A stretch of 64,000 nucleotides of DNA from Lytechinus variegatus (lineage: Eukaryota > Echinodermata > Echinoidea > Temnopleuroida > Toxopneustidae): assembly GCF_018143015.1 (NCBI RefSeq), contig NC_054743.1, positions 63,517,244 to 63,581,243 on the forward strand. Reading direction: 5' to 3'. Below are positions 8,391 through 60,419 of this stretch, piece by piece. Under the pieces are notes generated by a model. It had not been told where the DNA came from. It searched no databases and worked only from the letters and a program-made list of their open reading frames with translations. The first letter of the stretch is position 1. Each line of letters opens with the position of its first letter. The position numbers and the translations under genes are program-made.

Positions 8391-9760
8391 CCTTGTCGGC
8401 CCCTATATCGATTGAATATGTATTTAAAAAAATTGCTGACATTCGATATTATCCATTTTAAAGCAAATTCCACGTATTGGACTTGGAAAAGGTAGCGGAC
8501 ACATATTCAATTTGGAGACGATAATAGCTTTGTTCAGTTTAATCACTGGTATAGGGGCGTATAAGGGACTAATCAAACATCATAACTGACAATATTTGGT
8601 TTTCTTCAATGTTCTTCATGCCACTCTCCACTCCTAATTTGCATTGTTTTATCGTACTTCATAAATGTTTGTACATTGACTCTTTCAGCATGCGCTGCTG
8701 GTCAATTTTTATTTGCATTATGTAAATAAATAATCATTATCCACCCCTATTTCGGTTAAATATGTATGAAAGATTGCTGACATTCGATATTACCCATTTT
8801 GAAGCAAATTCCGTGTTTTGGCAAGAGTAGGAAGGGGAAGCGGACGCTCCGTATGCTTCAAAATATTTAATTTCAGAGACGGTATGTCCTTTAATATGTT
8901 CTGTTTACTGGTAGAGGGACAATCAAACATCATAACTGACAATATTTGGTTTTCTTCAATGTTCTTCATGTCACTCTCCACTCCTAATTTGCATTGTTAT
9001 ATCGTACTTCATAAATGTTTGTACATTGATTCTGCTGCTGGTCAAATTTTATTTGCATTATGTAAATAAATAATCATTATCAACCCCTATTACGATTACA
9101 TAATTATGTACTAAAAAAGATTGCTGGCATTCGATATTACCCATTTTGAAGCGAATTCCATGTATCATGTGTATTGGCAAGAGTTGGAACGGGGCAGCGG
9201 ACGCTCCGTATGCTTCAAAATATGCTTCACGACGGGTCGTGTGGTCCAGTGGTTAGAGCATAGGACTCATAATCGTAAGGTTGTGAGTTCGAATCCCAAC
9301 TCTGCCATTGTCTCCACTTTGATAAAAAGGCCCGAGAGTGATATCTGTCGTCTATGACGTCAGCCACTATGACTGATTAACCTAGACGTAAAATGTTTCG
9401 TAGGTAATTGGTTTTATACCAGCTTGGCGTTTACCAGCAAAATGCTGTCCTGCCGAGTTCCTAAGGGAGTTACCACAAACAGAAACAGAAAATATCTAAT
9501 TTCGGAGACGCTATGCCCTTTAATATGCTCTGTTTAATTACTGGTATAAGGGGCTAATGTAACATCCTTGTCGACCCCTAGATCGATTGAATATGTATCC
9601 AAAAAATGCTTGGATGCGATATTACCCATTTTGAAGCAAATTATACGTATATAGGAAAGACTAATTGAAAGAGGCAGTAGACACTCTGTGTGTTTCAAAA
9701 CATTTCTGAGACGCTATGTCCTTTAATAATGTGTATATATGAAATGTATGATTATTGGTC
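8391..9760 (+). repeat. Local tandem array, unit about 345 bp, four partial units
   Basis: Units begin near 8391, 8741, 9081 and 9568. Each shares cccctat..cgatt, gctgacattcgatattaccc, ttgaagcaaatt, a cggacgctccgtatgcttcaaaa block and the cctttaatatgttctgttta block. The third unit is split by a SINE (9224-9488). Confidence 0.75.
9224..9488 (+). mobile_element. tRNA-Met-like SINE inserted in the tandem array
   Basis: The head (gggtcgtgtggtccagtggttagagcataggactcataatc) looks like a methionine elongator tRNA with a CAT anticodon loop and is followed by the B box gttcgaatccc. The supposed acceptor arms do not pair, so it is not a functional tRNA. The insertion is flanked by AAAATAT at 9217-9223 and again at 9489-9495, a target-site duplication that restores the array unit. 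Confidence 0.75.
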
Positions 9761-19200: not shown

Positions 19201-22200
19201 ATGTAATTAAAAGTAAAGTAAGACAATCTAGACCATATATGAAGAACCACCCATTTCAAGTGTTTTTGCATTATGAATGGGTGTGGCCATATTTGTTCTG
19301 TTCATTTGCAACATTTAGGACTATCAGAAAATAAAGTCATTCTAGCAAAAGCCATTTAATTGTTGGGTAAATGATAATCATTTATCTACCGAGTATAGTA
19401 ACTATGACAATTGCATTTTGAGCAACTATTGTTTCACAGAAAATGGCATGCAGTATGGTTCTACCTAGATTGCACATAATTTACTTTCTTAAAATGACTT
19501 TTTTTTTATAAAGCTTTACCACTGGTTATTGATGAAAAAAATCATTCACTCTGTCTTTTCTTAACAACCTAATAATTTTCTAAAGTTTGATGAATATAGA
19601 AAAGCTAAATTTCATTGATTGAGGGGAAATCATGCACTTTTGAACATTACAATTATTTTAAAAGAATTTGCAATACATGTGATGAAGAACAGGACACTGT
19701 GATTAAAAATATGATTATTTTTCTGAAAAAAGGATTTCTATGATTTGATTTTGGGAATGCCCTGCTTTACAATTTACCCAACACCTAGTTGTCTAAACTC
19801 CAAAAGCTCCAGAATGCTGCAGCACGTTTGGTCACCCTGTCTAAAAAACATGTTCATATCACACCCATTCTGAAATCTTTCCATAAGCCAGTTCGTAGTT
19901 CCTTTCTGCGCATGATCAAAAGATTCTATGCATGATCAGAGGAAGGTCATTTGTACTAAAGTGACATGGTGGTTTAAAATCTAATGAGATAAGCACCAAC
20001 TTTGATGTCTTGATTATTCATAAATTCTTTTGAATAGTGGTTTTCACTTACCTCCACAAAAAACAATGCATCCTCAAATGACTGGAATTTCACAGTTTGC
20101 CAAGTACATTGTGCAACATGCTATGATATGCATTCAAAGTAGGAATGCAACAAATACCTTCATAAAGTGTTCACTGGTGTGCTATTCTAGTCACCTTGTC
20201 TATTCAATTTCTTCATCCTGCTATGTAAGGCAAGCTTATGTAATATGCTTCTTTGAAATCTGCCTATCATAATGAAAGAAATGAAAGGTCATTTGACCAA
20301 AATTGTCCATGAAGTAACTACGAACTGGTCATTGGTTAAAGGTAAACAATCGCATCATTGTCAAAATCCTTCTCTTTATATTCCATGCAATTAACGGCTC
20401 TGCTCCACAGTACAATATCAATCTAATTAACAAATACACTCCTGTCAGGTCCCTACGTTCATCCAACTCTGGTTCCCTAGTTATTCCTAGGTCCGTTAAT
20501 GGGGGGTTCGGGCTTTTGCTCATGCTGGCCCTGTTCTCTGGAATGATGTTCCCCTGGTTATCTGTGAATGCACCTCCATTGACACATTTAAACGTTACCT
20601 TTTAAGACTCATCTATTCAATGCTTCCTACTCTTAATTGTTCCTGAATCTTTATTTGTAATTTTCTTTCTTTATTTCTCTCTTTCTTTTACCAACCCTTG
20701 GGTAGTCTGTCGAGTGGATTTGGCACATTACAAATCACATATTATTAAAACTATCAGATATTTAGTAAAGTGAGATTGGCAACTCTTTTACCATTTCAAT
20801 ATTTTCTCTGAACCTTGAATGCGATAGAATGAGCGTCTGAAGGAGGAGCAGCTGTACCATATCAAAACGCTCCTGAAACAAGCCAAGGAGAGAGACCAGG
20901 AGCTGGAGCAGGTGACCGTCATTAACAAGGAGCAGGTGGAGGTGGCGCTGAAGGAGAAATGGAGATCCTGCAAAGAGGAGGAGAAAGCTATCGAGGGTAA
21001 GTCCAGGGGGCTTCTTTTTGGGGGAGGGGGACGGGAGAGATTCATATCATAGGTGAGCCAATTATCATGAGATAAGATTCGATTTGAAGCTTGGGTAAAT
21101 TACTTTAATGCCAGAGTGGAGATATTTTTGTGTACGCCCGTCCTAGATGGGACGTATTATGGTATCACGCTCAGTGTCCGTCCGTTCATCCGTCCGTCCG
21201 TCTGTTATTCCTTGTAAACACAATAACTTAAGGTTGACATATTCTAGGCTCACATAATTTGGCATGTATTGTGCTAGCCTAAATCCCAGAAAGCCTAATG
21301 ATTTTTAGGTCCAAAGGTCAAGGTCACAGTGACATGTTTTCATCTTACCTTTCCGAAGTCCTTGTAAACAATGCGATAACTTTAGTTTAACTTAACCTAG
21401 GCTCATATAATTTGGTGTGTATATGATACTAGCATGGGTCCAAAGAAGCCGTTTGATTTCAAGTTCAAAAGGTCAAAGTTCAGGTTGCCACCTTCCATTT
21501 TTCTTGCTTGACAAATAACTCCTATTTCCCGCGTCAAAGGCGGGCGTATTATGTGCCCGCCCTCGCCACATTCTTGTTTAGAGTAGTTGAAGACTTGAGG
21601 TGTTGCTCTGCAAGGCTACTGGTTTGTATTTAAGTCATTTTATGATCTGTTTTATGGGTTAAAAATACATTATTTAGTTAATTTTGATTAATCATGAGTA
21701 TGAGGTGCTGTGACATGGTAGGAAATGATTTTAATCATTTGGGGGCCATCTTTTTTTCCTTCTTTTTGTTTTTCATTAGGACGATTGTGAAATTTTGGGG
21801 GCTGTTTCTATCATTTTAAGTGATACTTTTTAGGGGTAAAAAGCAATTGTGCAGGATAAGCAAACATCATTCTGTCTTGTAGTTAGAATATTGATTTTGA
21901 ATAATCTTGAATATATTTTGTTGCAGATATTTGGGCGAATTGAGAAAGCATGGTAGCCCCAATGCATGGATTTTTAAAGGAATTTTAGGGGCTATTTGGG
22001 GTGTCATGAGAGATAAATCGCCAGTCGCCCACATGTATTTCCTGCGCTGTGCTGTGGACGTTATTTGCAAGATTATAGATGTAAAAATGCTATGTGTAAA
22101 AAGTTTGGATAATAATAAAAATAAAATGATCATAAAGTTTTAAAGGGGCATTATATGGTTGTTTCAGAGTGCACAAGCGTACTCAGGGCCCTGGGAACGA

Positions 22201-25200
22201 TTTTTCAATAGGGGGTGCTGGTTTCGAAGAAAAGTTTGACAAGCAAGCAACAAAAAAGATTTTTACTACAAACTTACTTTTTACTACTTTGTAGCATACC
22301 TACATGTACTTGATAACACCCCAGCATCCGGCTCGCTTCCTACAAATCTAATAAATACTACACAGTGAAGTAAACCTAACTATAAACTTTTAACAACATA
22401 TCGTGCCCTAAATTCTTAAGAATTTGATTGGTCTCTTTTTGTGACAGACGGAAATTTCCCGCCTATGCTTTATTGTCGCATCAGTTTCCATTGACGGTGA
22501 CCTTAATGTTGACTTTTACTATCCCATTGCCTTTATTAATAAACACAAATGTTGCTTAATAATTTGCTCATGAGCCTTGTAGTGATATGTTTGAACAAAC
22601 CTATGATATTCCTGCTCCACTATACATATACATTTTAGACATGAAGAACAAAATTTCTGAGACGATAAAGCAGTACGAGGAAGACCTGATCCAGGTGAAG
22701 AAATGGACAGAGTATAAGAACAAAGGGAGCATAGAACATGCAACGCACATCAAACTGCTCCAGGAAGAGCTGGAGGACATGCAGAAAAACTTTGAAGAAA
22801 TGAGAGGTTAGTGAGAGTACAGCGTTTGTTGAAACAGGCCCTAAAGATAAATTTCAGTTGTCGTAACGAATTCAAAATGAGTTCGTACAGAATCCGATGA
22901 AATGACCACAAAGTGTCTGTTTGTGTAAATAAAAAATGAGTGCCAAAGGATTCTGAAAAAATTGTGTAATTGCTGAGAAATTAGGAAATAAGCACCGGAT
23001 TCGGGTCAAGCGTCGGGCCGACATTCAAAGCAATAATAATACACTTTCCCATTTGCGCTTATCTGTGTTGATTATCTTCAGTGTGAACATTTTTCAGTGT
23101 AGATTTCAAGATTTCACTAAGTTCAGTTTATGTAACTGTACCAGATCTAGATCGTCAATGATATAGTAACAATTAAGCTTGGTTTTACACACTTTCTTGT
23201 GAAATCAGGGTTTACTGCAACTACTTTCATTTATCTTTAAATTTTTGTTATTTTAAGGGGAAGGCCATTTCTCTATATAGGCACATTTCTGTATTGCAAG
23301 CATAATTTGGAAGAATTTTGAAAGGCCAGTGAGAGGGATATATATTTATGTAATATTTACTTTGAGGGGAATATGGAATATATTGCCCACAGCAGAATCA
23401 TATTAACCAAAGTCTTTAGACGAAGGCAATATGGTGCTCCCATACACTTGATACGTACAAATCTTGTGTTTGGGTTTCATTGACCAGCTGGGAATGTTAT
23501 CGACTGATAATTCTGCACAGAACTGCAATATGAAAAAATTAATAGTTCAAAGAGTATGAGAGTGTGAACATTGTGTTCCCTTGTCTTGCAGCCAAGCTGA
23601 ACCCTGGCTGGGCCATTATGACAGATTTTCTGTTGGGATAATCAATTACACAGACAAAATAAATTTTTATATCCTGTCATTCAACAGGGTGCTACATAAC
23701 TTTTTAGAAGCACTTGCCCGATTGGGCAAGTAAATTTTTAAATTGTTTGAATATACAGTTGGGGCCAGAAGTTTACATACACCTGGTGAAAAAATTATTT
23801 TTCTCATTTTTTCATCATTTTTTGTCACTCAACCAGTTGAATTGCCAATTAGATCAGAAGAATTATCCAAATACTTTATGCCCAAGGTGAATATTTCATA
23901 TAAAATACTCAGATATATGTAACATGGTTTATAATATCTATATTTCTGAAAAATCAATGGGTCAAAAGTTTACATACAGTTCACTGTTGAAGTGATAAAA
24001 TGTGTTTAAAAAGAGGTGCCATGGCTTTCAGGTGGACTTGATTTCCTTTTAATGACTTGAGAAATGTGATAATGCTATAATGTCATTTGAAAAATGACCG
24101 CAGAATTATGCATACCTCTTCCTTGGACATTTGAAGCATGATTCACATTCCATCTTTGTCAAGGAAAGCTAAATTTTGACCTGATGAATAGGGTTTTGTC
24201 TTTTGAATAGCCTAATGGTAAAAATGTTGACCAGAAGTTCCTGCAGTGATTCAGTGTTGGTATCTATAAATGCTACCACCAATACCGTGTTGATCAGCAC
24301 TCAACATTAGCACCATGGGGAATTCAAAGCAATATACCAAAGACCTTAGGCAGCGTGCTGTTGATTTACACAAGTCCGGTTCATCTTTAGGAGTCATATC
24401 AAAGACCCTGATCATGCCTCGTGCTTCAGTGCAAACCATAATACGCAAGCATAACACTCTCGGCACAGTGCTGAATCTACCAAGATCAGGGAGAAAGCGA
24501 AAACTCAACCGGACAGTAGAACACAGACTTGTGCGTATAGTTCAGCTTATCCCATGGATGGCAAAAAAAAGATTTGCCAGGATCTGGAGGCTTCAGGAAG
24601 CAAGGTATCCCCCTCTACCATCAAGCGGGTCCTCCATGATCATGGACTGAGAGGTTGCAGAGCTAGGAAGAAGCCTCTTCTCCAGGACCGACACCGTAAA
24701 GCCAGACTGAAGTATGCTAATGAACACCTGGGCAGTGGCAGTGGCAGCATCATATTGTGGGGATGCTTTGCAGCAAGTGGTACTGGCTCACTCCAGAAGA
24801 TTGATGGCACCATGAAGAAAGAGGACTACCTGAAAATCCTTCAGCTAAACCTGAAAAGGTCCGCTAAGAACCTCAATCTTAGTCACAATTGGGTTCCAAC
24901 ATGACGGTGACCCGAAACACTCAAGTCCAGACCTGAACCCTATTGAAAACCTATGGAGAGAACTCAAAAAGCATGTTCGGTCAAGGAAACCAAGGAATGT
25001 GACACATTTGTATGCCATCTGCCAAGAGGAGTGGTCAAAAATCTCAGGAGACGTCTGCAAGAAGCTAGTGTCCAGTTGTCCACGTCGACTGAGAGATGTG
25101 AAGACGGATGGAGGCAGTGCTACCAAGAATTAGGGCTGGTGTATGTAAACTTTTGACCCTCCAATAAACTGGAAATATATCTATTATGAACCATATATAT

Positions 25201-28200
25201 GTCTCCAAGTGTTTTTATTTGAAGTATATGCCAGGTATATTTAGAAGAGACCATACTTGTCTGCATCCATGAAATTATATTTTGGCAGGAATGAGTGAAA
25301 GTGTAAAAATTCGAGGATCACTATTTGTCTACTAGGTGTATGTAAACTTTTGGCCCCAACTGTACTTGCCCAAAAATCTATTTCACTTGCCCGAAAAATG
25401 CTTGAAAAAAAGGTTTTACCTCTTCAAAGGAAAGTTTTGCGGTTATTAAAACCATTGACCTTTTTCTCTCTTTTGACATGAACTGATCTACCTTGTTATT
25501 GCATTTCTTTTTCCAAACTGATTTTTATCTTGCCTGCCATGACCAAAATTAAGGTCAATATCATATCATATTGACCCTGATTTTGGTCATTCTACTGTGA
25601 GAATTTTGCTTGCCCAATTCGGGCAAGTAGTTTTGGTCTTTACTTCAAAACACTTGCCCAACTCTAAGTTTTACTTCCCCGGGCAATCGGGCAAGTGCTT
25701 ATGTAGCACCCTGCATTCAAGTAAAACTACATACTATAATTCAATATGCACATGTATTACATCTGTTTGTAAGTGCACAAATTTATTGATTGTAATCCAG
25801 TTATTTTGTCAGCTTGATTAGCTTGATATGGGGATGTACAGATTTAGTAAGTTCTACCCAAGTTGTACATGTCTATCACTAGAAATAAGTATAAATCTGT
25901 CATTGTGTTGTTTTTTTTGAACAGCTCATCTTGAGAGAACTCTAAACATAGCCAAGGAAGAGATTAAAAAAGAAACAACAGAAAGACTAGATGAACAAAA
26001 ATACATAGCCTCCGAGGTGAGTACCACTGCACTATAACTTCTTTGAGGGCATGTTCACACTGGGCTTCATGTTTCACATTTTGAAAATTGATTTGGGATT
26101 GATACATCTAATATGAGGAAATAAGATAAGACATTGGAACAATATGCATCTAATTTGCATAATTTAATTTAATAGAAAAAAAATAAAAAAAACTTTAAAC
26201 AGTGATGTTAAAGAAAAATACCAGTAGTTGCAGTAAACACTGATTTCATGAGAAAGTCTTTAAAACCAGGCTTAATTGTCAGTATATCATCAAGGATCTA
26301 GATCTGATACAGTTACATTAACTGAACTTTGTGAAATCTTGAAATCTACGCTGAAAAATGTTCACACTGAAGATCACCAACACAGATAGGCACACGTGGG
26401 ACAGTGTATTATTATTGCTGGAATAAAGACCCGACGGAAGTGACCGAATCAGCGCTTATTTTGTTTATTTCTCAGCAATTACACAATTTCTTCCAGAATC
26501 CTTTGGCACATATTTTTTATTCATACAAACAGCCACTTAATTGGGTGGTCATTATATTAGATTCTGTAAAAAGTCATTTTGAGATTGTTACTAGAACTGG
26601 AATTTATCTTTAAATATCCTGAGGTACTTTTCAAAGTTTTGCATCATTAAGGATCTGAACGGAAGGGCTTCATCAGATTTACACTCCCATAAAAAACATT
26701 GTTGAAAAAAGCCCCTGTTGAATTCCGTGTACCTGTACCAAGATTATATATTTCTCGCAGATGTTTGTGTCTTTGCATACATGTATGCCTTTACTAATGC
26801 CATTCAAGAAAAGCACTCATATCGTGGAGTGTTGTGACCCATTGGATAGGTCTCTGGACAAAAAAAACAGATGGTCGACCACTTGTTGGTTTAAATCCCA
26901 ATCCTGGCATAGTTAAGCTGGCAGGCATCTTTTCCTTGAAACCCAGGAGTTATTACATGTATGCAGCATTCCCCTTAGAGTGCTTAGAAAATTTTTATAA
27001 AGTAAAGTGATAAGCAACTATATATTTTATTCTTATTGGTGTATGCATGTTTCTCATTCGAACTTTGCTTATTTCCTAACAGAAAGCGATCAAAACTCTC
27101 GACAAGTTTAGTGCCCAAGAAGTCATTGATAATGACTGGTTAAAGAAAGAGGTTAGTATTTTTATCACAAATTAATAGACATCGTTTTGATATATTCATT
27201 GCTATTATATTAACACGTAAATATTACTGGGGGTTTTTATCATTATCTTTTTTATTATCATTATTGGTATTATTATTGCCATTGTTTTTGTCTCACCTGC
27301 GAAGCAAAGTGAGACTATAGGCGCCGCTTTTCCGACGGCGGCGGCGGCGGCGTCAACATCAAATCTTAACCTGAGGTTAAGTTTTTGAAATGACGTCATA
27401 ACTTAGAAAGTATATGGACCTAGTTAATAAAACTTGGCCATAAGGTTAATCAAGTATTACTGAACATCCTATTAGAGTTTCATGTCACATGACCAAGGTC
27501 AAAGGTCATTTAGGGTCAATGAACTTAGACCATGTTGGAGGAATCAACATCGAAATCTTAACCTGAGGTTAAGTTTTTGAAATGTCATCATAACTTAGAA
27601 AATATATGGACCTAGTTCATGAAACTTGGACATTAGATTAATCAAGTATCACTGAACATCCTACATGAGTTTCACGTCACATGACCAAGGTCAAAGGTCA
27701 TTTAGGGTCAATGAACTTTGGCCGAATTGGGGATATCTGTTGAATTCCCATCATAACTTTGAAAGTTTATGGATCTGATTCATGAAACTTGGACACAATA
27801 ATAATCAAGCATCACTGAAAATTTTGTGCAAGTTTCAGGTCTCATGATTAAGGTCAAAGGTCATTTAGGGTCAATGAACTTTTGCCAAATCGGGGGTATC
27901 TGTTGAATTACCATCATAACTTTGAAAGTTTATTGGTCTAGTTCATTAAACTTGGACATTAGAGTAATCAAGTATCACTGAACATCCTGTGCGCGTTTCA
28001 GGTCACATGACCAAGGTCAAAGGTCAATGAACTTTGGCCGAATTGGGGGTATCTGTTGAATTACCATCATAACTTTGAAAGTTTATGGATCTGATTCATG
28101 AAACTTGTACATAAGAGTAATCAAGTATCACTGAATATCCTGTTCGAGTTTCAGGTCACATGATCAACGTCGAAGGTCATGTAAGGTCAATGAACTTTGG

Positions 28201-31200
28201 CCGTGTTGGGGTTTTTGTTGAATAACCATCATATCTCTGTAAGTTTATTGGTCTAGTTCATAAAAAGTGGACATAAGAGTAACCATGTATCACTGAACAT
28301 CTTGTGCAAGTTAGAGTAGTATTCAAAGTCAGCACTGCTGCTATATTGAACCGCGTGATGCAGGTGAGACGGCCAGAGGCATTCCACTTGTTATTATTAG
28401 TTATATTATTGTTATTATTATTAATATACTATGATGAAGATGATGATGATTATTATTAATTTCTAGTTGGAGCTTCACACAGAAGAGACCATTTCGCTCC
28501 AAGGGGAGGTAGAGCGATTAGAACGGGAGAATCTAACAGTAATGAGCGACCTGTTTGACTGTAGAATAGAGGATCTCAAAATATCAAGGTGAGAGGAAAT
28601 GTGAGTTTCCTTGGCATGTGAGTTGTGGGCATGTCATGGTTTAGTGGTTCTGACTCTCACCTTTCAAACAGAGGGTCGGAGTTTGAAGGCTAGCACTGGT
28701 GTGTTTTCCTTCGGCAAGAAATTTATCAATCCACACTGTGCTGCATTCGACCCAGGTGAGGTGATTTGGTACCCGGCAAGGATTTATCCCTTGAATGCAC
28801 TGAGCACAGGTAGTAGTAGCTCAAGCTAAAGCCGGGGTAATAATAGAAGCGCTTTGTATCCTTGGGCAAAAAGCGCTATATAAAACCAGCTATAATTATT
28901 ACTATTATTTCTCCATTCTTGAAAATTTGCAGTTTTTGATATTCTGTATCAATATCCATTTCTCTTCTTAAACTGTCGACCTTTAGAAATTAAATTTAGA
29001 ACGTTGCCAATTGAGCAGTATAAAAAGCACTGATCAAATAGGGTTACAAATCTGTCTCTTTCATAAAATAATCATCATTCACTAATGTTTATTGTTTGGG
29101 ACTTGAAGATATATACCTATATCCCGATCACAAGTATCGATACCGACACGTCATCATAACGTTTCCATGAATCATAACATGCTATTCTGAACCTACGAAC
29201 TTGTCTGAAATCTCTTTATTCGGAGTCCAACATGGTGTCCGAAGTGGGATTCATGGAAAATTTTCCGTAATTAAGACTTGTGCGGACATTTCAAATGCTA
29301 TCTTGGAGAAGGAAAATCACTTTGCAATGCTGATTTTGAGCCTCGAAACGTGAGTAACTTTTGCCGATTTCAGTCATTTCTTACTACAGTCCCAGCTATT
29401 GAAAATGGCGTCTTGTCAAATAGGCATCCCGGTACCACAGCCGATGTGCTGCAAGGGCAATTTGGAGTCAAATTGGAAGGCCTTTGAGGAGTCATGGAAC
29501 GACTACCGCATAGCGACAGAGCTAGATAAGAAGCCAGATAGCGTGCAAGTAGCAACTCTCAGATCAGTGATGGGCCAAGATTGTAAAGATAGATTGGCAA
29601 CCTTACCGATGAGTGATGCAGAGAGACTGAAACCGCAGATCATTGTCAAAAAACTGGCAGAACATTTTGCTCCAGCAAGGAATGTGCTATACGATCGGTA
29701 TGCACTGTTACATCTCTTCCCCGTATGAATTGGTCAAACTTCTCGCAGCTGTATACTATAGCCAAGCACTCCTTTTCAATTTGGGCATAGTTTTGTTCAC
29801 TCCTTGTCAAGGATCTAGATGCAAATGATACTGGCTGCCCATTCTGAAGCAAGGTCGCTCCCAGTCCCTTCTCCGAAGCATCACATTGTATGGTGACCTC
29901 CTCTTTTACATCATAGTACTTGAGCACTGGAGCTTGCGTGAGGAGTTGTTGCACCTCTTTGAGCGTTTCCTCATGTTCCGGTCTCCACTCAAAGTGCACA
30001 TCCTTGTCAGTCAGACGCCTCAGAGGCTCCGCCACATCTGATAGTCGAGGCAAGAATCTTGCAAGGTAAGTAACACTACCCAATAGCCTCTGGACACCTT
30101 TCTTGTCAGTCGGAGTTGGCATCTCCACAACAGCCTGTACCTTCTTTGGATCCGGTTTAAGGCCAGTTGCTGTCAAGAGATGTCCCATGTATGGCACTTC
30201 ACTCAGTCGTAATCTGAGCTTCTTCTTGTTCAAGGTTAGCCCGACCTTTCTTGCTCTTGCCAAGAACTTGCGGAGATTCTTGTCGTGGTCTGCTAAGGCT
30301 TCCTCCAGATTAGCGCCACTGCCATATACTAGGAAGTCATCTGCCACAACATCAACACCAGATAAGCCTTCAATGATCTCATGTTGCCTTCTCTGAAACT
30401 CTTCCGGTGCTGTACATATGCCAAAGGGCATACGAGTCCATCTATAACGACCGAATGGCGTTGCAAATGTCGTCAGTAAACTGCTCCTTTCTGTCAGCTT
30501 CACTTGCCAAAAACAAAACTATGCCCAAATTGAAAAGGAGTGCTTAGCTATAGTATACAGCTGCGAGAAGTTTGACCAATTCATACGGGGAAGAGATGTA
30601 ACAGTGCATACCGATCACAAACCCCTCGTACCAATCTTCAAGAAGGCTATACATAGTGCCCCAAAGCGGCTCCAGAGGATGATGCTAAGACTCCAGAACT
30701 ACCATCTGGATGTGATATACTGTCCAGGGAAAGAAATGTATATCGCTGATTGGCTGAGCAGAGCGTTCTTACCAACCACTGAAGGCAGAGATAAAATCTA
30801 TCAGGAGATAGAACAAATCAATCAGACTGAATACGTCCGAATCAGTGATGCAACGTCTATTCAGCTGCAAAAGGAGACGCTCCGAGATCCAGCACTGCAG
30901 ACACTGACATCAGTAGTAATGAACGGATGGCCGGAGACCAAAGATGATGTTCCTGTAGTAGTACGTGAGTACTACAATTACCGAGACGAAATAACGGTAC
31001 AGAATGGAGTTCTGTACAAGGGCATGAAAGTCATTGTTCCATCAGCCATGAGAGCCCTAATGCTGAATCGAGTGCATAGCAGTCACCTGGGAGTCGACGC
31101 CTGTGTTAGACGCGCTCGGGATGTTCTCTTTTGGCCAGGTATGCAGGCAGAGGTGAAAGAAAAGGTGACACAATGTAGCACCTGCAATGCGTTTCAGCCA

Positions 31201-34200
31201 AAACAACAAAAGGAGCCTATGTTGTCGTATGATATTCCGAGCAGGCCTTGGAGTATCGTGTCACAGGACCTTTTCACTCTTCACAACGAGGACTATCTGA
31301 TAACCGTTGACCACTACAGTGATTACTGGGAGATCGACAAGATAACAGGTGACACCAGAGCAGCAGTCATTGTGGCATGCACAAAAGGCCATTTCGCACG
31401 ATATGGACGTCCAGACAAGGTGATAACAGACAATGGACCCCAGTTTGTTGCCAAGGAGTATGCTCAGTTTGTTACCGACTGGGAGGTTGAGCATATAACC
31501 TCTTCGCCATTGCATGCTCAAAGCAATGGAAAAGCAGAATCAGCAGTGAAAATTGCCAAAACTCTCCTAAAGAAAGCAGCAAAACAAGGAGAAGACATCC
31601 AGTTGGCTTTATTGGATTGGAGGAATACTCCTGCTGATAGTGGTGCCAGCCCGGCACAAAAGATGATGGCTCGACGAACCAACACTCTACTACCAACACC
31701 AGAAGCACTCCTTAAACCACAAGTAATAGGGGGTGTATCACAACACATCAGTCACAAGAAACAGAGGGCCAAGAAATACTATGACCAAACAGCAGCACCA
31801 CTCCCTGAGCTAGAGATTGGACAACCGGTCCGCATCCAGCCTAAGAATCGTGGTTTGGAGTGGGGCAAAGGAATCTGCATGGAGAAAGTTGGTCCACGGT
31901 CATTCTTGGTTCAAACAGAAGCTGGCCGAATGTTAAGGAGGAACCGGAGGTTCTTGAGATCAACCGCTGAACCTCTCATTCCAGACACACAGATGGCTGA
32001 GACAGAGAGCCCAACAACAACACGTGATAGCCCAGAAGATGCTACTATATTCCAGCCAGTGGGTCAACAACCATCCTACGCTGAAGTGACAGCAAAACCA
32101 GTCGAATCGCGTGCTAAGGAGGTACCCGTGAACAACTCTCAGACTCAATCAACAAGCGCTGGTCGCGGAACGAACCAATCGAACTGGCCTACCAAATCTA
32201 CGCGCACCAGAACAGGAATCCAGATGCCAGCGAAATACAATCAGTTCGTTAGCAAATAACCTACACCGTAAGGATGATAACTGAGAGATTGGACTTGTAT
32301 AAAGAAGCAAGTGTATATAATTACAGAACAGTTTTTTTTTTTCTTCGCGTTTGTTGATAGTTTTGATAGTTTTTTCGCGTACGAAGAATATCGAGTTCAG
32401 CTGCAGGAAAATGCCTTGGAATGTGTTTTAAATAAAATAATGATTTTTTCAAGACGTGGGACTCATTTCTTCATTTGACTTCACACACTGGACATTGAAC
32501 TCTGTGCCAAAACTACTGATAAATGGACAAAAGACTCATTTTTTTTCACATGTTTTTTATTTTTTGAATTGATTTGAATGGTATCACTGAATGTAATGTG
32601 ACTGGGATGCAGAAGCTCAGCAAAACGATTCACACAAAACGGGAAGGGAGAAAAAAAGAAGGTAGTTGAAAAAAACAAAATCAATTATCTTTTAATGAAA
32701 GTTTTCACTATCCTTTTTCTATTTTTTAAAAGGAAGGGAGATGTTTGGGACTTGAAGATATATACCTATATCCCGATCACAAGTATCGATACCGACACGT
32801 CATCATAACGTTTCCATGAATCATAACATGCTATTCTGAACCTACGAACTTGTCTGAAATCTCTTTATTCGGAGTCCAACATTTATCATTATGAGAGGCT
32901 CGTCGGTTGAAGACTTTTTCTAAAGACATACTTGTGCAAGATGGCATGGTCCTCTAATGAGAATTGAGATATTAAAGATAAAGGCCTATTTAACCTAACG
33001 ATGAATCCCAAGCACAGGGGACAATAAGGATTAAATCAGAACTATAGGTGAGACCACTTGAACATTGTGGCATTTAAATGTGGTTTGTTATCACTTTGAA
33101 AGAGAAGCAGTTACGGTGTTGTGTTGAATTTGGTCATTCCATGTGTGTGGAAATTCCAGCGTTGCGATTGTCACCAGAGCAAATGTCATGGAGCCATTGT
33201 GTACACTGGTTGACCAATCTTTCAGTATCAACATGATTGATTGATGCTGCAATAAGGGTGCAACTTGATTGTATGTGCTATGAAACGCACAAATTAAGTC
33301 ATTTTAAATGAAAAGCTTAAATGCTTACTCTTCCCAATGTTAATGTATCTGGTTATGATATTCTTTCAAGTCTGTCATCATTAAGTCAATGCCAAATTAT
33401 TTTACCTATTAGGAAGTTTTACCTGACCCAGTTTGAGGATAATGAGGATCTTAACGATGGTGGAATCTTGGAGTTTGACCTGGCCAAGTCTGCAATCAGT
33501 CAGGGTGATGTTCCTCCTCCAATGGCAATCACACAAGGTATGGTAGCCTCTAAAATAAGACCCTTGTCACATTTTGAAAGGATCAGTCTTGGGTTAAAAG
33601 TCAGACATTAGTCGGGGGGGGGGAGGGGGTATTTGTCCACTAGCACTTGCACAAGGTTAGTGTAACCAAGGAGTTGCTGGTAACTCCTTGGTGTAACTTT
33701 ATCTTTGGTTTTCAAATTGAAGATTTATGATAACATTGATACCAAATGTTTGTTTTTGACATATTTTTTCCTTTTTTCCTTGCTATAAATAAGGCAATGT
33801 GTTTTTTTTCTGATTATTGAGTATAATAATAATAATATACTGATTTATATAGCGCAGAAACTATGTGCATATATTCTACTGCACTGCAATTTAGAGCTGG
33901 TGAAATGCTTGAAAACAAAATTAGAAAAGGGGTTACAGAAATGTATGGGATTTATTTGAATAGATAGGTTTTTCAATTTAAGTTTGAACGTTTCTATTGA
34001 TGGACAGGATCTCACAACATACGGCAAACCATTCCATAACGTTGAGGCTGCACAGGCAAAAGCACGATCTCCCAAGGTTATCTTTGTATTACGAGCGGGG
34101 ATGTGAAGAGCAAATTATAACTAGAACTACGTAGTATGTGAGAGTGTCTGTGAACTTTTCTTTGTAAAAGCTCAGAAATATAACGGGGGGCTTGTCCACT

Positions 34201-36690
34201 TAGTGCCTTGTATGCCATTAGCAAAATCTTGAAAGATATTCGTTGGCGAACTGGAAACCAGTGCAGATCTTTTAAGACAGGGTTGATCCTTGAAAATCTA
34301 GAATGACATTGTTATGTATTGTGCACAAACCTGTCTTCCATACATGGATTTGCAGCACCTATTCTCAGTTTCATAATCCTTTACGATCCTGCACGATTCT
34401 TTACAGTGACCACACGCATAGAATGCTGTAGACCCACACTGCAACTTTTTGATATGTCAGCCGATAGTTAAAGGCTAGGGATCGTTACGGTGAGAGGAAT
34501 TTGAAAGATCCTCTTTTTTGTCAGGAATACTTTTTTGGGTGGGGGGTAGAAGAAAGTTGGTATCTATACAGTAACGTTATTCCCTGATTTATTTTTATGA
34601 CCATTCGTCATCAGGACCTCGCAAGCAAAGGCCGCAGAGTGCGACCCAGAGGGCGGTAGAGCAGAAAGTTTTCTCTCTCCTACCACGGGAGCAGGACCAA
34701 GCTGCCAGCGAGGAAGAGGGATATGGGGATAGGGGCGAAGAGGTCTTTGCCCAACATAGCGGAGAGGAGGAGGAATATCTGGGCGGCTTGGACAACTATC
34801 TCAACTTTGATGATGAAGATTTTGATGTAAGTGAATCTTTTTTGAGCTGAAATTACAAGTTTTTTAAATACTTCAATTTAACCCTAATAAGACTGAGGGC
34901 CCCACCCCTCGACATTTTTGTCTCACCTGCGAAGCAAAGTGAGACTATAGGCGCCGCTTTTCCGACGGCGGCGGGGACGGCGGCGTCAACATCAAATCTT
35001 AACCTGAGGTTAAGTTTTTGAAATGATGTCATAACTTAGAAAGTATATGGACCTAGTTAATAAAACTTGGCCATAAGGTTAATCAAGTATTACTGAACAT
35101 CCTGTTAGAGTTTCATGTCACATGACCAAGGTCAAAGGTCATTTAGGGTCAATGAACTTAGACCATGTTGGAGGAATCAACATCGAAATCTTAACCTGAG
35201 GTTAAGTTTTTGAAATGTCATCATAACTTAGAAAATATATGGACCTAGTTCATGAAACTTGGACATAAGATTAATCAAGTATCACTGAACATCCTGCTTG
35301 AGTTTCACGTCACATGACCAAGGTCAAAGGTCATTTAGGGTCAATGAACTTTGGCCGAATTGGGGATATCTGTTGAATTCCCATCATAACTTTGAAAGTT
35401 TATGGATCTGATTCATGAAACTTGGACATAATAGTAATCAAGCATCACTGAAAATTTTGTGCAAGTTTCAGGTCTCATGATTAAGGTCAAAGGTCATTTC
35501 GGGTCAATGAACTTTGGCCGAATCGGGGGTATCTGTTGAATTACCATCATAACTTTGAAAGATTTTTGGTCTAGTTCATTAAACTTGGACATTAGAGTAA
35601 TCAAGTATCACTGAACATCCTGTGCGCGTTTCAGGTCACATGACCAAGGTCAAAGGTCAATGAACTTTGGCCAAATTGGGTGTATCTGTTAAATTACCAT
35701 CATAACTTTGAAAGTTTATGGATCTGATTCATGAAACTTGTACATAAGAGTAATCAAGTATCACTGAACATCCTGTTCGAGTTTCAGGTCACATGATCAA
35801 GGTCAAAGGTCATGTAAGGTCAATGAACTTTGGCCATGTTGGGGTTTTTTGTTGAATAACCATCATATCTCTGTAAGTTTATTGGTCTAGTTCATAAAAA
35901 AGGGAAATAAGAGTAACCATGTATCACTGAACATCTTGTGCGAGTTAGAGTAGTATTCAAAGTGAGCACTGCTGCTATATTGAACCGCGTGATGCAGGTG
36001 AGACGGCCAGAGGCATTCCACTTGTTTGTGATAAGTCTTCCCCTCGAAATTTTTGCCCGCGTCGCTCACTGACTTTTCACTTTCAAGTCTCGCGTAACTT
36101 TTTAGACCAAAATTGAGACCCCCGGGAATGTGTTTCTGAAATTACGCAACATTTCGTAAGTGCATGCAGACCCCAAATTGCTCAAAAACGTGAATTTGTG
36201 TACAAATCCAATGTTGCCTGTTTCCTTTTCAATTATTCAAATTAACTTGATGTTTGGGAATTCAACCCAATTCACAGTTTAATTTTCTCATCCAGGGTGG
36301 TGTGTCATAAAGTCGTTAATTTGTAAAGTCATTCGCGACTTTAACAGTGACTGAAAATGTTCTTACTGTGCCAAGTCACTGCGGTAGAGATATTTCTAGC
36401 ACAAGAAAGGTAAATCCAGTCATGCGCAAAGTTATCTTTAATTTATTATTATGAAAAGGCACCCATCTTTAATTATTCTTTATCCCCTTCTCAAACCCTA
36501 CCAGGACTATCTCAAACTAGGGCCCCTTGAACTCAAGCTGTTGAGCATAGAAGGCCACGCTAAACCCATCCACGAGCACAAGAAACTCTCAGTCAAAGAA
36601 GAGCAAGCCAAGCTCTCCGCGCCGGACGTCTGGCCGGTCACGGGGGACATGTTGAGGTCGGCCACCCGCACTTCTATGCAAGAGACTTGA
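16161..36690 (+). CDS. CCDC83: Coiled-coil domain-containing protein 83 (ten coding exons)
   Basis: Ten exons join in phase with GT-AG borders to give 445 residues: 16161-16270, 18145-18229, 20828-20996, 22639-22806, 25925-26016, 27083-27151, 28467-28588, 33413-33537, 34615-34826 and 36505-36690. The match to vertebrate CCDC83 as I remember it runs the whole length, for instance ERNERLKEEQ, VALKEKW, DNDWLKKE, RKFYLTQ and DYLKLGPLELKLLSIE. The N-terminus is a Lys/Gly-rich tail (residues 1-25), residues 30-270 are mostly coiled coil, and residues 330-384 are acidic. An acceptor at 16135-16136 lies 24 bases before the start, so a noncoding first exon is expected upstream. The molecular role of CCDC83 is poorly known; no enzyme motif is present. 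Introns carry many mobile elements, and an alternative acceptor for exon 2 exists at 18040. The gene converges with RIOX2 on the opposite strand. Confidence 0.93.
16516..16893. mobile_element. Palindromic MITE with ccctttcataaaccc ends
   Basis: The left end ccctttcataaaccc and the right end gggtttatgaaagggg are exact complements. Inner motifs (attatccgcat, gcggctaat) also occur on both strands. It is about 378 bp and lies in CCDC83 intron 1. Confidence 0.75.
17740..18000 (-). mobile_element. tRNA-derived SINE in CCDC83 intron 1
   Basis: On the minus strand the head reads agtggataagtcgccggac...ggttcgaatccc, then the common SINE body (cacccgggtgtagttaatgggtac), and it ends in aagcgctatactataaatag. 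Its head lies only about 140 bases before exon 2 and part of it was copied in a local duplication (see 18040). Confidence 0.75.
18040..18144 (+). other. Duplicate of the exon 2 acceptor and first part of exon 2
   Basis: The acceptor tttctcag and the next 35 or so bases (atcaatgtcaaagaaaatgc...) occur here and again 105 bases later at 18145, where the real exon 2 starts. The intervening sequence includes a piece of the SINE head (tgggatttgaacccccgg). The 105 bases are open in the exon 2 frame, so use of this upstream acceptor would add 35 residues without changing phase. Confidence 0.75.
18145..18229 (+). CDS. CCDC83: CCDC83 exon 2
   Basis: Residues 37 (split codon) to 65, INVKENALEEFMYEIK onwards. 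The acceptor is tatctcag and the donor agg|gtaaag. Confidence 0.88.
18327..18498. mobile_element. Palindromic MITE, gtgtttcataaagctgttcgtaa family
   Basis: The left end ggtgggtgtttcataaa is complemented at the right end by tttatgagacacccacc. Related copies lie at 36297-36468 and 39345-39528. Confidence 0.75.
18500..19760. other. CCDC83 intron 2, left part
   Basis: AT-rich intron DNA. No frame or repeat structure recognised beyond short AT runs. Confidence 0.4.
19763..20680 (+). mobile_element. LINE 3' fragment (CR1/L2-like), split by a TIR element
   Basis: The left piece translates as LQKLQNAAARLVTLSKKH and the right piece carries FAHAGPVLWNDVPL and SIDTFKRYLLRL in different frames. These are typical of the C-terminal end of non-LTR reverse transcriptases of the CR1/L2 type. 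Several stops and frame changes show it is dead. Positions 19888-20328 are an inserted element. Confidence 0.65.
19888..20328. mobile_element. Terminal-inverted-repeat element inserted in the LINE fragment
   Basis: Starts with ccagttcgtagttcc and ends with the complement aactacgaactgg. It interrupts the LINE reading at the position where related LINEs read HWLPV. The interior of 441 bp is noncoding. Confidence 0.65.
20828..20996 (+). CDS. CCDC83: CCDC83 exon 3
   Basis: Residues 66-121 plus one base, NERLKEEQLYHIKTLLKQ onwards. The acceptor is gcgatag and the donor gagg|gtaagt. This is the best conserved coiled-coil segment. Confidence 0.92.
21119..21583 (+). mobile_element. Noncoding modular element with AGGTCA repeats (second family)
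   Basis: Begins after a T-run with tgtgtacgcccgtcctagatg and ends near cgcccgccctcgccacattcttgttta. Two degenerate internal modules share ccttgtaaacaca/ataac, aggctcacataatttgg and an AGGTCA pair (aggtcaaggtca, aggtcaaagttca). The layout resembles the larger elements at 27290, 34920 and 37759. Confidence 0.55.
22639..22806 (+). CDS. CCDC83: CCDC83 exon 4
   Basis: Residues 122-177 with split codons at both ends, DMKNKISETIKQYEEDL onwards. The acceptor is cattttag and the donor agag|gttagt. Confidence 0.92.
22843..23239 (+). repeat. Left arm of a ~400-bp inverted repeat
   Basis: This is the near complement of 26210-26613, sharing for example ttcagtgtgaacatttttca, gatttcaagatttcac and tgtgtaattgctgagaaat. 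The arms face each other across CCDC83 exon 5 and the nested transposons of intron 4. Confidence 0.8.
23756..25362 (+). mobile_element. Tc1/mariner DNA transposon, inactive
   Basis: The element is 1607 bp, flanked by TA (23754-23755 and 25363-25364). Ends read cagttggggccagaagttta and the complement. A second inner repeat (ttaaaagtttacataca type, near 23955 and 25140) gives the long two-block inverted repeats of fish/invertebrate Tc1 elements. The transposase inside is broken. It lies inside a hAT-like element in CCDC83 intron 4. Confidence 0.9.
24315..25157 (+). pseudogene. Tc1-type transposase remnant
   Basis: The N-terminal helix-turn-helix part is open (MGNSKQYTKDLRQRAVDLHK...), then the frame shifts near 24550-24590. 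The central part continues in another frame (KARLKYANEH...GSIILWGCFAASGTGSL). About 50 residues that normally lie between these two motifs and hold the first catalytic Asp are missing. A second loss removes the stretch between QHDGDPKH and SPDLNPIENLW, which normally are some 20 residues apart. The second Asp and the final Glu motif are still visible. The copy cannot encode a working enzyme. Confidence 0.85.
25925..26016 (+). CDS. CCDC83: CCDC83 exon 5
   Basis: Residues 178-208, AHLERTLNIAKEEIKKETTE onwards. The acceptor is tttgaacag and the donor gag|gtgagt. It sits between the arms of a large inverted repeat. Confidence 0.9.
26210..26613 (-). repeat. Right arm of the ~400-bp inverted repeat
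   Basis: Inverted counterpart of 22843-23239. Similarity is high by eye, with scattered substitutions and a few small indels, so both are old copies of one dispersed element or one duplicated segment. Confidence 0.8.
26820..27000 (+). mobile_element. Degraded tRNA-SINE
   Basis: An A-box-like stretch (cattggataggtctctggac) and B-box-like stretch (ggtttaaatccc) are spaced as in a tRNA head, followed by the ttttccttgaaacccaggagt body. Confidence 0.4.
27083..27151 (+). CDS. CCDC83: CCDC83 exon 6
   Basis: Residues 209-231, KAIKTLDKFSAQEVIDNDWL onwards, phase 0 at both ends. The acceptor is cctaacag and the donor gag|gttagt. Confidence 0.9.
27290..28392 (+). mobile_element. Modular AGGTCA element, copy 1 (HINE/Helentron-like?)
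   Basis: The left end is GTCTCACCTGC after a T-run, and its exact complement GCAGGTGAGAC lies at 28360-28370, 22 bases from the right end. A GC-rich head with a cgg run follows the left end. The body is six degenerate tandem modules of about 150-190 bp, each with catcataact, a catgaaacttggac-type line, tatcactgaacatcct, a cacatgaccaaggtcaaagg line and gggtcaatgaact. No protein is coded. Asymmetric inverted ends plus tandem core resemble nonautonomous Helentrons (HINE, pearl, DINE-1); this assignment is inference. Confidence 0.75.
28467..28588 (+). CDS. CCDC83: CCDC83 exon 7
   Basis: Residues 232-271 plus two bases, LELHTEETISLQGEVERLER onwards. The acceptor is tttctag and the donor aag|gtgaga. 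Confidence 0.92.
28617..28908 (+). mobile_element. tRNA-derived SINE in CCDC83 intron 7
   Basis: The head is catggtttagtggttctgac, the body has cattcgacccaggtgaggtg and ggtacccggcaagg, and the end is aaagcgctatataaaaccag plus an ATT repeat. It starts about 30 bases behind the exon 7 donor. Confidence 0.75.
29093..29232 (+). repeat. 5' LTR
   Basis: Begins tgtttgggacttgaagat and ends ggagtccaaca; same sequence as 32742-32881. Confidence 0.9.
32742..32881 (+). repeat. 3' LTR
   Basis: Copy of 29093-29232, preceded by a purine-rich tract (aaaaggaagggaga) as expected for plus-strand priming. Confidence 0.9.
33413..33537 (+). CDS. CCDC83: CCDC83 exon 8
   Basis: Residues 272-313 with split codons, KFYLTQFEDNEDLNDGG onwards. 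The acceptor is ctattag and the donor caag|gtatgg. Confidence 0.9.
33829..34320 (-). mobile_element. LINE 3' fragment (CR1/L2-like)
   Basis: On the minus strand a frame reads GDRAFACAASTLWNGLPY and SIETFKLKLKNL, the typical C-terminal end of a non-LTR reverse transcriptase, and then runs into a 3' UTR ending gcgctatataaatcag plus an ATT repeat. The start of the element is missing. The end matches the SINE tails of this window. Confidence 0.7.
34615..34826 (+). CDS. CCDC83: CCDC83 exon 9
   Basis: Residues 314-384, GPRKQRPQSATQRAVEQKVF onwards and then an acidic part rich in Glu and Asp. The acceptor is gtcatcag and the donor gat|gtaagt. This exon is the least conserved with vertebrates. Confidence 0.9.
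34920..36026 (+). mobile_element. Modular AGGTCA element, copy 2
   Basis: Same ends and the same six modules as 27290-28392, very similar throughout. Five modules carry an intact AGGTCAAAGGTCA. It lies in CCDC83 intron 9. A ccctcga.attttt stretch occurs just before and about 13 bases after the element. Confidence 0.75.
36297..36468. mobile_element. Palindromic MITE, cataaag(c/t)tgtt family
   Basis: Diverged relative of 18327-18498, with ggtggtgtgtcataaag at the left and a decayed complement ending in aaggcaccc at the right. It ends about 36 bases before exon 10. Confidence 0.5.
36505..36690 (+). CDS. CCDC83: CCDC83 exon 10 (terminal)
   Basis: Residues 385-445 and the TGA stop. DYLKLGPLELKLLSIEGHAK is the most diagnostic match to vertebrate CCDC83. 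The acceptor is accctaccag. The 3' UTR end was not placed with confidence; an AATAAA at 37627-37632 is one candidate. Confidence 0.93.
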   Translation, partial: DYLKLGPLELKLLSIEGHAKPIHEHKKLSVKEEQAKLSAPDVWPVTGDMLRSATRTSMQET

Positions 36691-36961
36691 GCGGGTGCAG
36701 ACTGAATGGATTCATTTATTGAAATTGAAACCAGTAGGTTTTAAAATATGTATTTGATCAAATGTTCTTGTTCAAATTTGCACCGGCTGTATTAATATGT
36801 TTGGGATAATTATGAAATTGGGAACCACCGTTCACTTCGTACAGCAGCGCTTTATCCAGTCACACCCATTGGTTCCTTATTTCCACCTCCATTCACTTTG
36901 TACACAAGTGTGCACGTAAAAAACGTGTAGTTTCCCAAAACACGATTTGGCCAATTATAAC

Positions 36962-37042
36962 ATGCAACATTTATATAGCGCTTAATGCAATGTTTCTAAG
37001 CACTGCATACTATAACCCCCGCTTTAGCACAGCTACTCATAT
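36962..37042 (-). mobile_element. SINE 3' fragment
   Basis: On the minus strand this reads gctaaagcgggggttatag...gcattaagcgctatataaatg, the 3' part of the SINE family found elsewhere in the window. The tRNA-like head is absent. Confidence 0.55.
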
Positions 37043-37758
37043 TTATGATAGAAAGTTTATTGAGAGTCTTCTCTCACCAATGAGGTGGATTTCAGTATAA
37101 AATAATGTACATCAGAGAGGGAATTTAGTCAGATTCACAAGTTAACATTCGATCTAATTCAGTGGGTGATGGCGAGAAATGTCTTACACTATTCAAACCT
37201 TCCCCAGAAAGCTTTCAACATTCTTGCATTATCTATTAGTGTTTAACAATTCACAAGGAATGATATATTGCCTTATCATTGATAATCGAATACCCAAATA
37301 TGCAATATTATGCAACCCCAAATGTCTACTCTCTCTAATTATTTGTTTCCCTGACGTAGTTGCAAGCAAACTTCCAACATTTAAAAATGGAAGATGATAT
37401 GCATTCGCTAGAAGAGCTTCCTCTGAAAAAAAATCTATAGCAATGCTATTGTAATATGCAACAAAAACAATCATAATCTTTATGGCATAGTATTTCAATG
37501 TGTTGTAATAAAATGTATAGTTAAGAGTACAGTAGTACAATTATATGTGTGAATATTTATTGAAATGTTAATAGTTTTAATAGGAATTCACTTTGATGAA
37601 AAATTTGATTTAATCAAAGCAGATGAAATAAAGATGTGGTTTGGTGAATATCCGTGAATGAATAACAGAGTTATGAAGTTGGATTTCATGACATCCGAGA
37701 CAACAGCTACTCCATACGTCATGTTATATAAATTCAAGAAAATGGGATTTCGTTTTTT

Positions 37759-38706
37759 GTCTCACCTGCGAAGCAAAGTGAGACTATAGGCGCCGCTTTT
37801 CCGACGGCGACGGCGGCATCAACATCAAATCTTAACCTGAGGTTAAGTTTTTGAAATGACGTCATAACTTAGAAAGTATATGGACCTAGTTAATAAAACT
37901 TGGCCATAAGGTTAATCAAGTATTACTGAACATCCTATTAGAGTTTCATGTCACATGACCAAGGTCAAAGGTCATTTAGGGTCAATGAACTTAGACCATG
38001 TTGGAGGAATCAACATCGAAATCTTAACCTGAGGTTAAGTTTTTGAAATGTCATCATAACTTAGAAAATATATGGACCTAGTTCATGAAACTTGGACATA
38101 AGGTTAATCAAGTATCACTGAACATCCTGCATGAGTTTCACGTAACATGACCAAGGTCAAAGGTCATTTAGGGTCAATGAACTTTGGCCGAATTGGGGAT
38201 ATCTGTTGAATTCCCATCATAACTTTGAAATTTTATGGATCTGATTCATGAAACTTGGACATAATAGTAATCAAGCATCACTGAACATTTTGTGCAAGTT
38301 TCAGGTCTCATGATTAAGGTCAAAGGTCATTTAGGGTCAATGAACTTTGGCCGAATCGGGGGTATCTGTTGAATTACCATCCTAACTTTGAAAGTTTATG
38401 GATCTGATTCATGAAACTTGTACATAAGAGTAATCAAGTATCACTGAACATCCTGTTCGAGTTTCAGGTCACATGATCAAGGTCAAAGGTCATGTAAGGT
38501 CAATGAACTTTGGCCATGTTGGGGTTTTTTGTTGAATAACCATCATATCTCTGTAAGTTTATTGGTCTAGTTCATAAAAAGTGGACATAAGAGTAACCAT
38601 GTATCACTGAACATCTTGTGCGAGTTAGAGTAGTATTCAAAGTCAGCACTGCTGCTATATTGAACCGCGTGATGCAGGTGAGACGGCCAGAGGCATTCCA
38701 CTTGTT
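37759..38706 (+). mobile_element. Modular AGGTCA element, copy 3 (five modules)
   Basis: Same ends as copies 1 and 2, but one module (the fourth) is missing, leaving five and about 948 bp. Four modules keep AGGTCAAAGGTCA. It lies about 1 kb downstream of the CCDC83 stop. Confidence 0.75.
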
Positions 38707-56728: not shown

Positions 56729-56995
56729 GTAAGTGCCTGAACAGATATTGAAACCTTTCTTCATGTTTCTTTTTATAATAGAAATATTTACATCACGCCC
56801 CCATATCGTGATCGGACGTTAGAACATCGGGGGAAAATGATCATCCTCTGAAACCATTAGTTTAACAAAACCTGAATACAGTCATTTTGGAAGTAAAACA
56901 AAAACCAAGAGAAAAATACATGAAGACCCCTGCCTTGATCCACCAATATAGTGATATTTTTGAAGTGCAGGTATCTCTAAATGCAGAAACTCTTG

Positions 56996-60334: not shown

Positions 60335-60419
60335 CTTGGTTTCAGGGATGTGATAACCTGTAGCTGGAAGAAACAAGATAAAAACAAAAAAATCTGATAA
60401 TGAGAAAGACAATACCACA

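Follow-up and report, generated by a model that had tools for sequence, protein, structure and literature searches.

Three copies of one element in the window

The window analysed here is a stretch of 64,000 nucleotides of the sea urchin Lytechinus variegatus (contig NC_054743.1, positions 63,517,244 to 63,581,243 of the forward strand). It holds three copies, A, B and C, of an element with a central array of tandem units, and these units carry the direct repeat AGGTCA-A-AGGTCA, known as DR1 (Table 1). The perfect sequence, AGGTCAAAGGTCA, is present 13 times in the window, always on the plus strand, with four sites in A, five in B and four in C. The copies are 97.7, 98.1 and 98.5% identical in pairwise comparison, and all three start with GTCTCACCTGC and finish with CCACTTG. 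An earlier note on this DNA had claimed three near-identical copies with these same numbers of perfect sites, which is borne out, and their ends are now set at 28390, 36024 and 38704. It had also placed copies in introns of the gene CCDC83. Two copies do lie within introns, according to splice sites read by eye; the name of the gene is unconfirmed, given that a two-exon peptide had no convincing match in Pfam or PDB, where the family need not be represented. None of the 36 open reading frames of at least 110 amino acids in the window lies inside a copy, and no tRNA was found in a tRNA scan.

The alignment of the flanks of A, B and C stops at a common run of T and at TT. Indeed, each of the three copies has at least five T on its left and TT on its right, with no target duplication visible. 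Because the flanks are otherwise unrelated, the copies look like separate insertions of one master rather than parts of a duplicated segment. In the region 34900-36070, CCCCTCGACATTTTTG is found to the left of copy B and CCCCTCGAAATTTTTG a short distance to its right, probably as an older short repeat.

The ends of the copies have a defined structure. The subterminal inverted repeat (subTIR) at the 5' end is 11 bp long and is followed 8 nt later, in all three copies, by 7 bp that can pair with the first 7 bases of the repeat, and the 26-nt 5' end folds into a hairpin with a z score of -4.1. At the other end, 20 nt from the 3' terminus, lies a second subTIR that is complementary to the first at 11/11 bases, again in 3/3 copies. 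The central tandem units measure approximately 160 bp (range 153-191 bp), with start-to-start spacings of 191, 163, 163, 153 and 162-163 bp in A and B, and of 191, 163, 163 and 163 bp in C, and in each copy the last unit is partial and has no DR1.

Assignment to the HINE elements

HINEs, as described in passages of two publications, have subTIRs, a local inverted repeat, a microsatellite, central repeats and TT targets that are not modified upon insertion (PMC4067079, PMC7492417). The copies of the window have a 5' subTIR with its inverted repeat, a 3' subTIR, a tract of variable length, tandem repeats and a T-rich target with TT, and they have no coding capacity. It is therefore concluded, with a probability of roughly 0.88, that the three copies are HINEs, i.e., non-autonomous Helentrons of the rolling-circle Helitron superfamily, and that their DR1 sites were spread passively. 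The element itself is ordinary, and the assignment rests on its anatomy, on the near identity of the copies and on their separate insertion sites. A Rep/helicase of a Helentron encoded elsewhere would have used a single master element as its template and, via a single-stranded intermediate, placed the copies at T-rich targets, and the DR1 sites would have multiplied passively along with the central repeat.

The closest likeness is to HINE/DINE-1-like elements such as Cg_HINE of Crassostrea gigas, for which the same subTIR with local inverted repeat, microsatellite, central tandem repeats, 3' subTIR, T-rich TT target and absence of coding are described in the passages at hand (PMC4067079, PMC7492417). 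The copies described here differ from Cg_HINE and its kin in their weak 3' palindrome, in a 3' subTIR that lies close to the end, and in the perfect DR1 of their units. By description they can also be likened to the Pearl elements CvA, CvE and CvG (names in PMC11136912), whose short arrays have six units of ~160 bp at most (PMC7492417), and to the sea urchin Tsp elements, cited among DINE-1-like elements (PMC4067079).

Three observations weigh against the assignment. The 3' palindrome has a stem of only 3 bp, with z scores of -0.6 and -1.1, and the 3' subTIR is nearer to the end than in mite HINEs, for which a passage of PMC4067079 gives 38-60 bp. No autonomous Helentron partner was found, with none of the 17 long open reading frames scanned, out of 36 in the window, being Helitron-like. 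That the copies are instead a foldback element, a miniature inverted-repeat transposable element (MITE) or a satellite array whose ends arose by chance, for which the weak 3' palindrome speaks, as does a passage stating that the similar Pearl elements were originally described as MITEs (PMC7492417), is very improbable, given that asymmetric subTIRs, local inverted repeat, variable tract, T-rich target and the lack of a visible duplication occur together in 3/3 copies.

Table 1. Positions in the window of the element copies, their parts and the second element.
Feature	Position	Strand	Remarks
Copy A, assigned to HINE	27290-28390	+	Five full units and a partial sixth; 4 perfect DR1 and one decayed (28167-28179)
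Copy B, assigned to HINE	34920-36024	+	Five full units and a partial sixth; 5 perfect DR1
Copy C, assigned to HINE	37759-38704	+	Four full units and one partial; counterpart of unit 4 of A and B missing; 4 perfect DR1
5' subTIR GTCTCACCTGC with complementary 7-bp inverted repeat GTGAGAC	34920-34945 (B); 27290-27315 (A); 37759-37784 (C)	+	Hairpin
GGC-rich, microsatellite-like tract	34966-34985 (B)	+	Length differs among all three copies
DR1 starts, copy A	27496, 27688, 27851, 28014	+	
DR1 starts, copy B	35129, 35321, 35484, 35647, 35800	+	Site of unit 1 at 35129-35141
DR1 starts, copy C	37962, 38154, 38317, 38480	+	
Imperfect hairpin, unit 2 of B	35322-35356	+	5' arm is the DR1, 3' arm is AATGAACTTTGGCC; counterparts in other units
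3' subTIR GCAGGTGAGAC	35994-36004 (B); 28360-28370 (A); 38674-38684 (C)	+	
Weak 3' palindrome, GCC/GGC stem	36005-36016 (B)	+	No better than shuffles
Second, more diverged HINE-like element	21130-21576	+	Ends unlike the main family; GTCC tract; two units
Inverted arms of the second element	21133-21147 and 21534-21548		80% complementary

Conservation of the DR1 sites

With up to two mismatches allowed, DR1 is found 19 times in the window, against 2.18 expected, and 0/100 shuffles reached 19; the fifth site of copy A carries two substitutions. The 13 perfect sites are not independent, being descendants of a single array of which three copies were made.

Conservation within the array was judged on the five full units of copy B in a register set by hand. 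The longest invariant run, AAGGTCAAAGGTCAT, has 15 nt and includes the DR1, and the second longest is GGTCAATGAACTT. All 13 DR1 columns are invariant, compared with 66% of the columns elsewhere, which has a probability of 0.004 under independence for a site that had been named beforehand. An invariant run of 15 at an arbitrary place, by contrast, would not be unusual (P 0.12). When the partial sixth unit was included, an automatic alignment put the DR1 at rank 93 of 151; this alignment is considered wrong at the DR1.

A different picture is obtained when the three copies are compared with each other, i.e., for the changes that followed insertion. Among these copies 2/65 of the DR1 columns are variable versus 29/1037 of the other columns, and the 60 bases upstream of the DR1 vary at 10/300 columns. 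Given that the DR1 varies after insertion like its neighbours, its conservation is older than the insertions and selection by the host is not evident, within the low power of three copies. The earlier note had called DR1 the most conserved portion of every module; this holds for the five full units of copy B, where it is only modestly unusual. Its proposal that the element spreads ready-made receptor sites keeps the part that DR1 sequences were carried to each insertion, and the low-powered test for host selection of these sites was negative.

HINE-like arrays with the same motif

The second HINE-like element of the window (Table 1) has units that hold AGGTCAAGGTCA and AGGTCAAAGTTCA, with tandem GGTCA in both. 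Outside A, B and C, four tandem RGKTCA pairs with a spacing of 0-2 are found in the window; three of them lie in the centre of this element, and two of these share a half-site. The score of its comparison with the units of the main family was reached by 2/1000 shuffles and by 1/1000 random host windows, and by 146/1000 shuffles when the GGTCA-like stretches were masked.

A collection of prokaryote genomes was scanned for two DR1 sites 134-164 bases apart, which yielded 33 loci. Thirty of these were excluded for having a longest stop-free run of at least 267 codons; a 7-bp periodicity of at least 0.59 was found in 20 of the 30, and not in the other 10. L148, one of the non-periodic loci, has two 162-bp units that are 96% alike. 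In the remaining three loci, L129, L134 and L141, the longest stop-free run does not exceed 173 codons and all are arrays of 147-158 bp units. The first two come from a bin named 'Bacteroidetes Glo_2' (hereafter Glo), and L141 comes from the bin of a gill symbiont of Bathymodiolus brooksi (hereafter Bathy). L129 has perfect 11-bp inverted repeats around its array and, by eye, a local inverted repeat and a GTCC-like tract. L134 is related to it, with an inverted repeat found by eye whose 3' copy has two mismatches, and in L141 the array lies between 14-nt inverted repeats that match at 93%. Given the HINE-like arrays and the lack of long open reading frames, these loci are likely contamination of public prokaryote bins, and we infer that they are animal DNA, L141 probably that of the mussel. 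A further tandem array of 168 bp and 2.8 copies, without a perfect DR1, is found on the same presumed mussel contig (L141:3577-4040).

In the genus to which the mussel symbiont bin belongs, 12 genomes were searched and only the one already known was matched (1/12). The element end had no match in viral contigs, and the unit patterns had none in viral contigs or in the prokaryote collection. A 15-mer scan of the viral contigs returned at least 120 stretches. The viral contigs were also scanned for paired AAGGTCAAGGTCA, and the 11 loci obtained look, by eye, like 6-bp coding repeats.

In Glo the conservation can be followed over a larger number of units. One set held 15 units chosen by DR1-like patterns, without the degenerate unit that ends each copy. 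In this set the 13-base windows at ranks 1 to 15 all fall in a 28-base AGGTCA box, with one reaching one base past it, and the DR1 ranks 12 of 135. With all 17 units, two of them degenerate, the box has a mean of 0.94 versus 0.74 elsewhere, the 12 best windows lie in it and the DR1 ranks 14 of 135; the box as a whole ranks 3 of 120 windows of its size, which is near the top and not the single best. L129 and L134 have common flanks, in which they differ at 82/1179 positions.

A tandem AGGTCA box shared between families

The central repeats of four families (the main family, the second HINE, Glo and Bathy) were compared using one stretch of ~300-350 bases per family and 500 shuffles. The score of the main family with the second HINE was reached by 0 shuffles, with Glo by 0 and with Bathy by 4, and that of Glo with Bathy by 0. 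With the box masked, the scores of 5/6 pairs were reached by at least 69/500 shuffles, and that of the main family with Bathy by 25/500. Given that masking the box removes most of the similarity between families, the tandem AGGTCA half-sites are nearly the sole content that the central repeats of these four HINE-like families, two of them in the window, have in common. This is in line with the density of forward GGTCA, which per 160 bp is 2.7 in copy B, 1.6 in the second HINE, 3.4 in L129, 3.5 in L134 and 3.8 in L141, versus 64 in the remaining 60,394 bases of the window. The motif shared across families looks real and testable. The tandem AGGTCA box would then be an old shared core of the central repeats in HINE families of otherwise different sequence.

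Several points count on the other side. The scores of two of the six pairs are not clearly above those of shuffles even with the box unmasked (second HINE with Glo, 56/500; second HINE with Bathy, 30/500). The second HINE was noticed partly through a DR1 with one mismatch, in addition to a weak similarity. In L129, L134 and L141, DR1 was the query, so that its presence is by construction, whereas the HINE-like build of the arrays and the retention of the whole box are not. Between L129 and L134 the box differs at 5/137 positions versus 87/1115 elsewhere in the element (Fisher P 0.08), and when the last degenerate unit is counted as box the values are 5/157 versus 89/1125 (P 0.03). The Glo pair thus gives a weak hint of constraint on the box.

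A further lead comes from bivalves. The BIV160/Cg170 satellites, according to passages of PMC5139131, have units of ~160 bp with two motifs that are conserved despite divergence, and some of their arrays are parts of Helitrons. The BIV160 primer bivR contains TTTGACCCC, the complement of GGGGTCAAA, which offers the lead that one of the two motifs is the AGGTCA box. No publication dealing with AGGTCA motifs in the repeats of HINE or Pearl elements was found among the matches listed, for broad queries the best-ranked of a larger number, and the strings ggtca and tgacc are absent from the main texts of a set of satellite and Helentron papers.

Other features of the window

Between copies A and B, at 29354-32259, lie pieces of a Ty3/gypsy-like retroelement. 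Reverse transcriptase and RNase H are read from the minus strand (29646-30518), RNase H and integrase from the plus strand (30448-32259). Given that these domains are on opposite strands, the retroelement may have been broken by an inversion. A transposase of the Tc1/Sleeping Beauty type, split across two frames, is found at 24294-24904, and a 350-bp unit is directly duplicated at 8564-9223 (1.9 copies, 87% matches). Two coding stretches for TatD-like DNases are located on the minus strand at 55520-60433; the larger one has a long N-terminal part, and the pair looks like a local gene duplication.

Persistence of the box

A role of the motif in the life of the element, of which the role in copying raised by the earlier note would be one possible form, finds some support in a box that is shared by four families and well conserved in two of them. 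Among the reasons that can be considered for the persistence of the box, a protein that binds it and helps the element is favoured, followed by slippage and homogenisation, by a hairpin and, lastly, by enhancer use by the host. The nuclear receptors RXR and COUP-TF bind DR1. A protein of the host, or one encoded by the element, may bind the box to the benefit of the element, and this is tentatively preferred as the likeliest reason; the obvious candidate would be a receptor of the DR1 type. HNF4 also binds DR1, as stated in PMC3252374. The proposal can be widened, in a form that is doubtful as a whole, to a box that would be a functional component conserved across different animals in the elements derived from Helentrons. 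It would then be retained by families whose ends are unrelated and whose central repeats otherwise differ, because a candidate DR1-type receptor of the host or an element protein binds there, opening chromatin or recruiting the rolling-circle machinery, for example in the germ line.

The box could also be a mutational product, in which short tandem AAGGTCA units slip and are kept uniform by homogenisation of the array, with no function involved. In agreement with slippage, the DR1 consists of a 7-mer in duplicate, and between two GGTCA 10 bp are missing in unit 4 of A and B, and 7 bp in one Glo unit. Slippage alone, however, leaves unexplained how one motif came to be present in four families with no other match between their repeats, and the exchange that removed a unit in C falls, by eye, outside the DR1. 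For these reasons, the purely mutational origin is considered unlikely.

Alternatively, the conserved feature would be a hairpin used while the element is single-stranded, with the DR1 as its 5' arm, rather than a protein site. The DR1 region folds with z scores of -2.9 or below in 13/14 units, the exception being the decayed fifth unit of A, and the two longest invariant runs of copy B are the two arms of the stem. The 17 windows that span the DR1 and its partner have a mean z score of -3.8 versus -0.6 for the remaining windows of B, the four best 45-nt windows of B are located at this hairpin, and only 2/300 host 45-mers reach -3.8 or below. A palindrome at the box is also found in the Glo and mussel units (best z scores of -3.4 to -3.8). 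Nonetheless, the Glo and mussel windows over the DR1 have a mean z score of -0.9, with the partner of the DR1 upstream and not downstream, and the second HINE has tandem GGTCA but no strong hairpin (best z scores of -2.3 to -2.6). In copy B, a G/A mismatch in the stem is retained in 5/5 units, and the 3' arm was not spared after insertion, with 4/70 columns variable. The hairpin therefore generalises poorly across families, and as the reason for the persistence of the box it is held to be improbable.

Use of the candidate DR1 sites as enhancers by the host would have in its favour the perfect consensus in 13 places, the location of two copies within introns by eye, and precedents described in two publications, ISX (PMC4384637) and the HNF4 sites in Alu repeats (PMC3252374). 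The lack of excess conservation of the DR1 after insertion in the window and the site that is already broken in copy A make this the least probable of the four reasons, and a quite remote one. Of these precedents, ISX of Drosophila miranda is a Helitron-derived element that spreads protein binding sites, with binding and selection demonstrated there (PMC4384637). The HNF4 sites of Alu repeats were likewise multiplied by a mobile element, in this case a human short interspersed nuclear element with measured binding (PMC3252374). That the motif recurs in elements which are otherwise different but built alike hints at an ancient common component of these elements, and not at a switch put in place for genes in the vicinity.

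Among invertebrates, HINEs are widespread, as are the satellites associated with them, and no function is assigned to their short tandem arrays in the passages of the literature at hand. Should a single short motif be the common content of arrays that are otherwise different, these arrays may be binding platforms. If this is true, such genomes would hold many DR1 sequences derived from transposons, which would matter for the reading of receptor binding maps.

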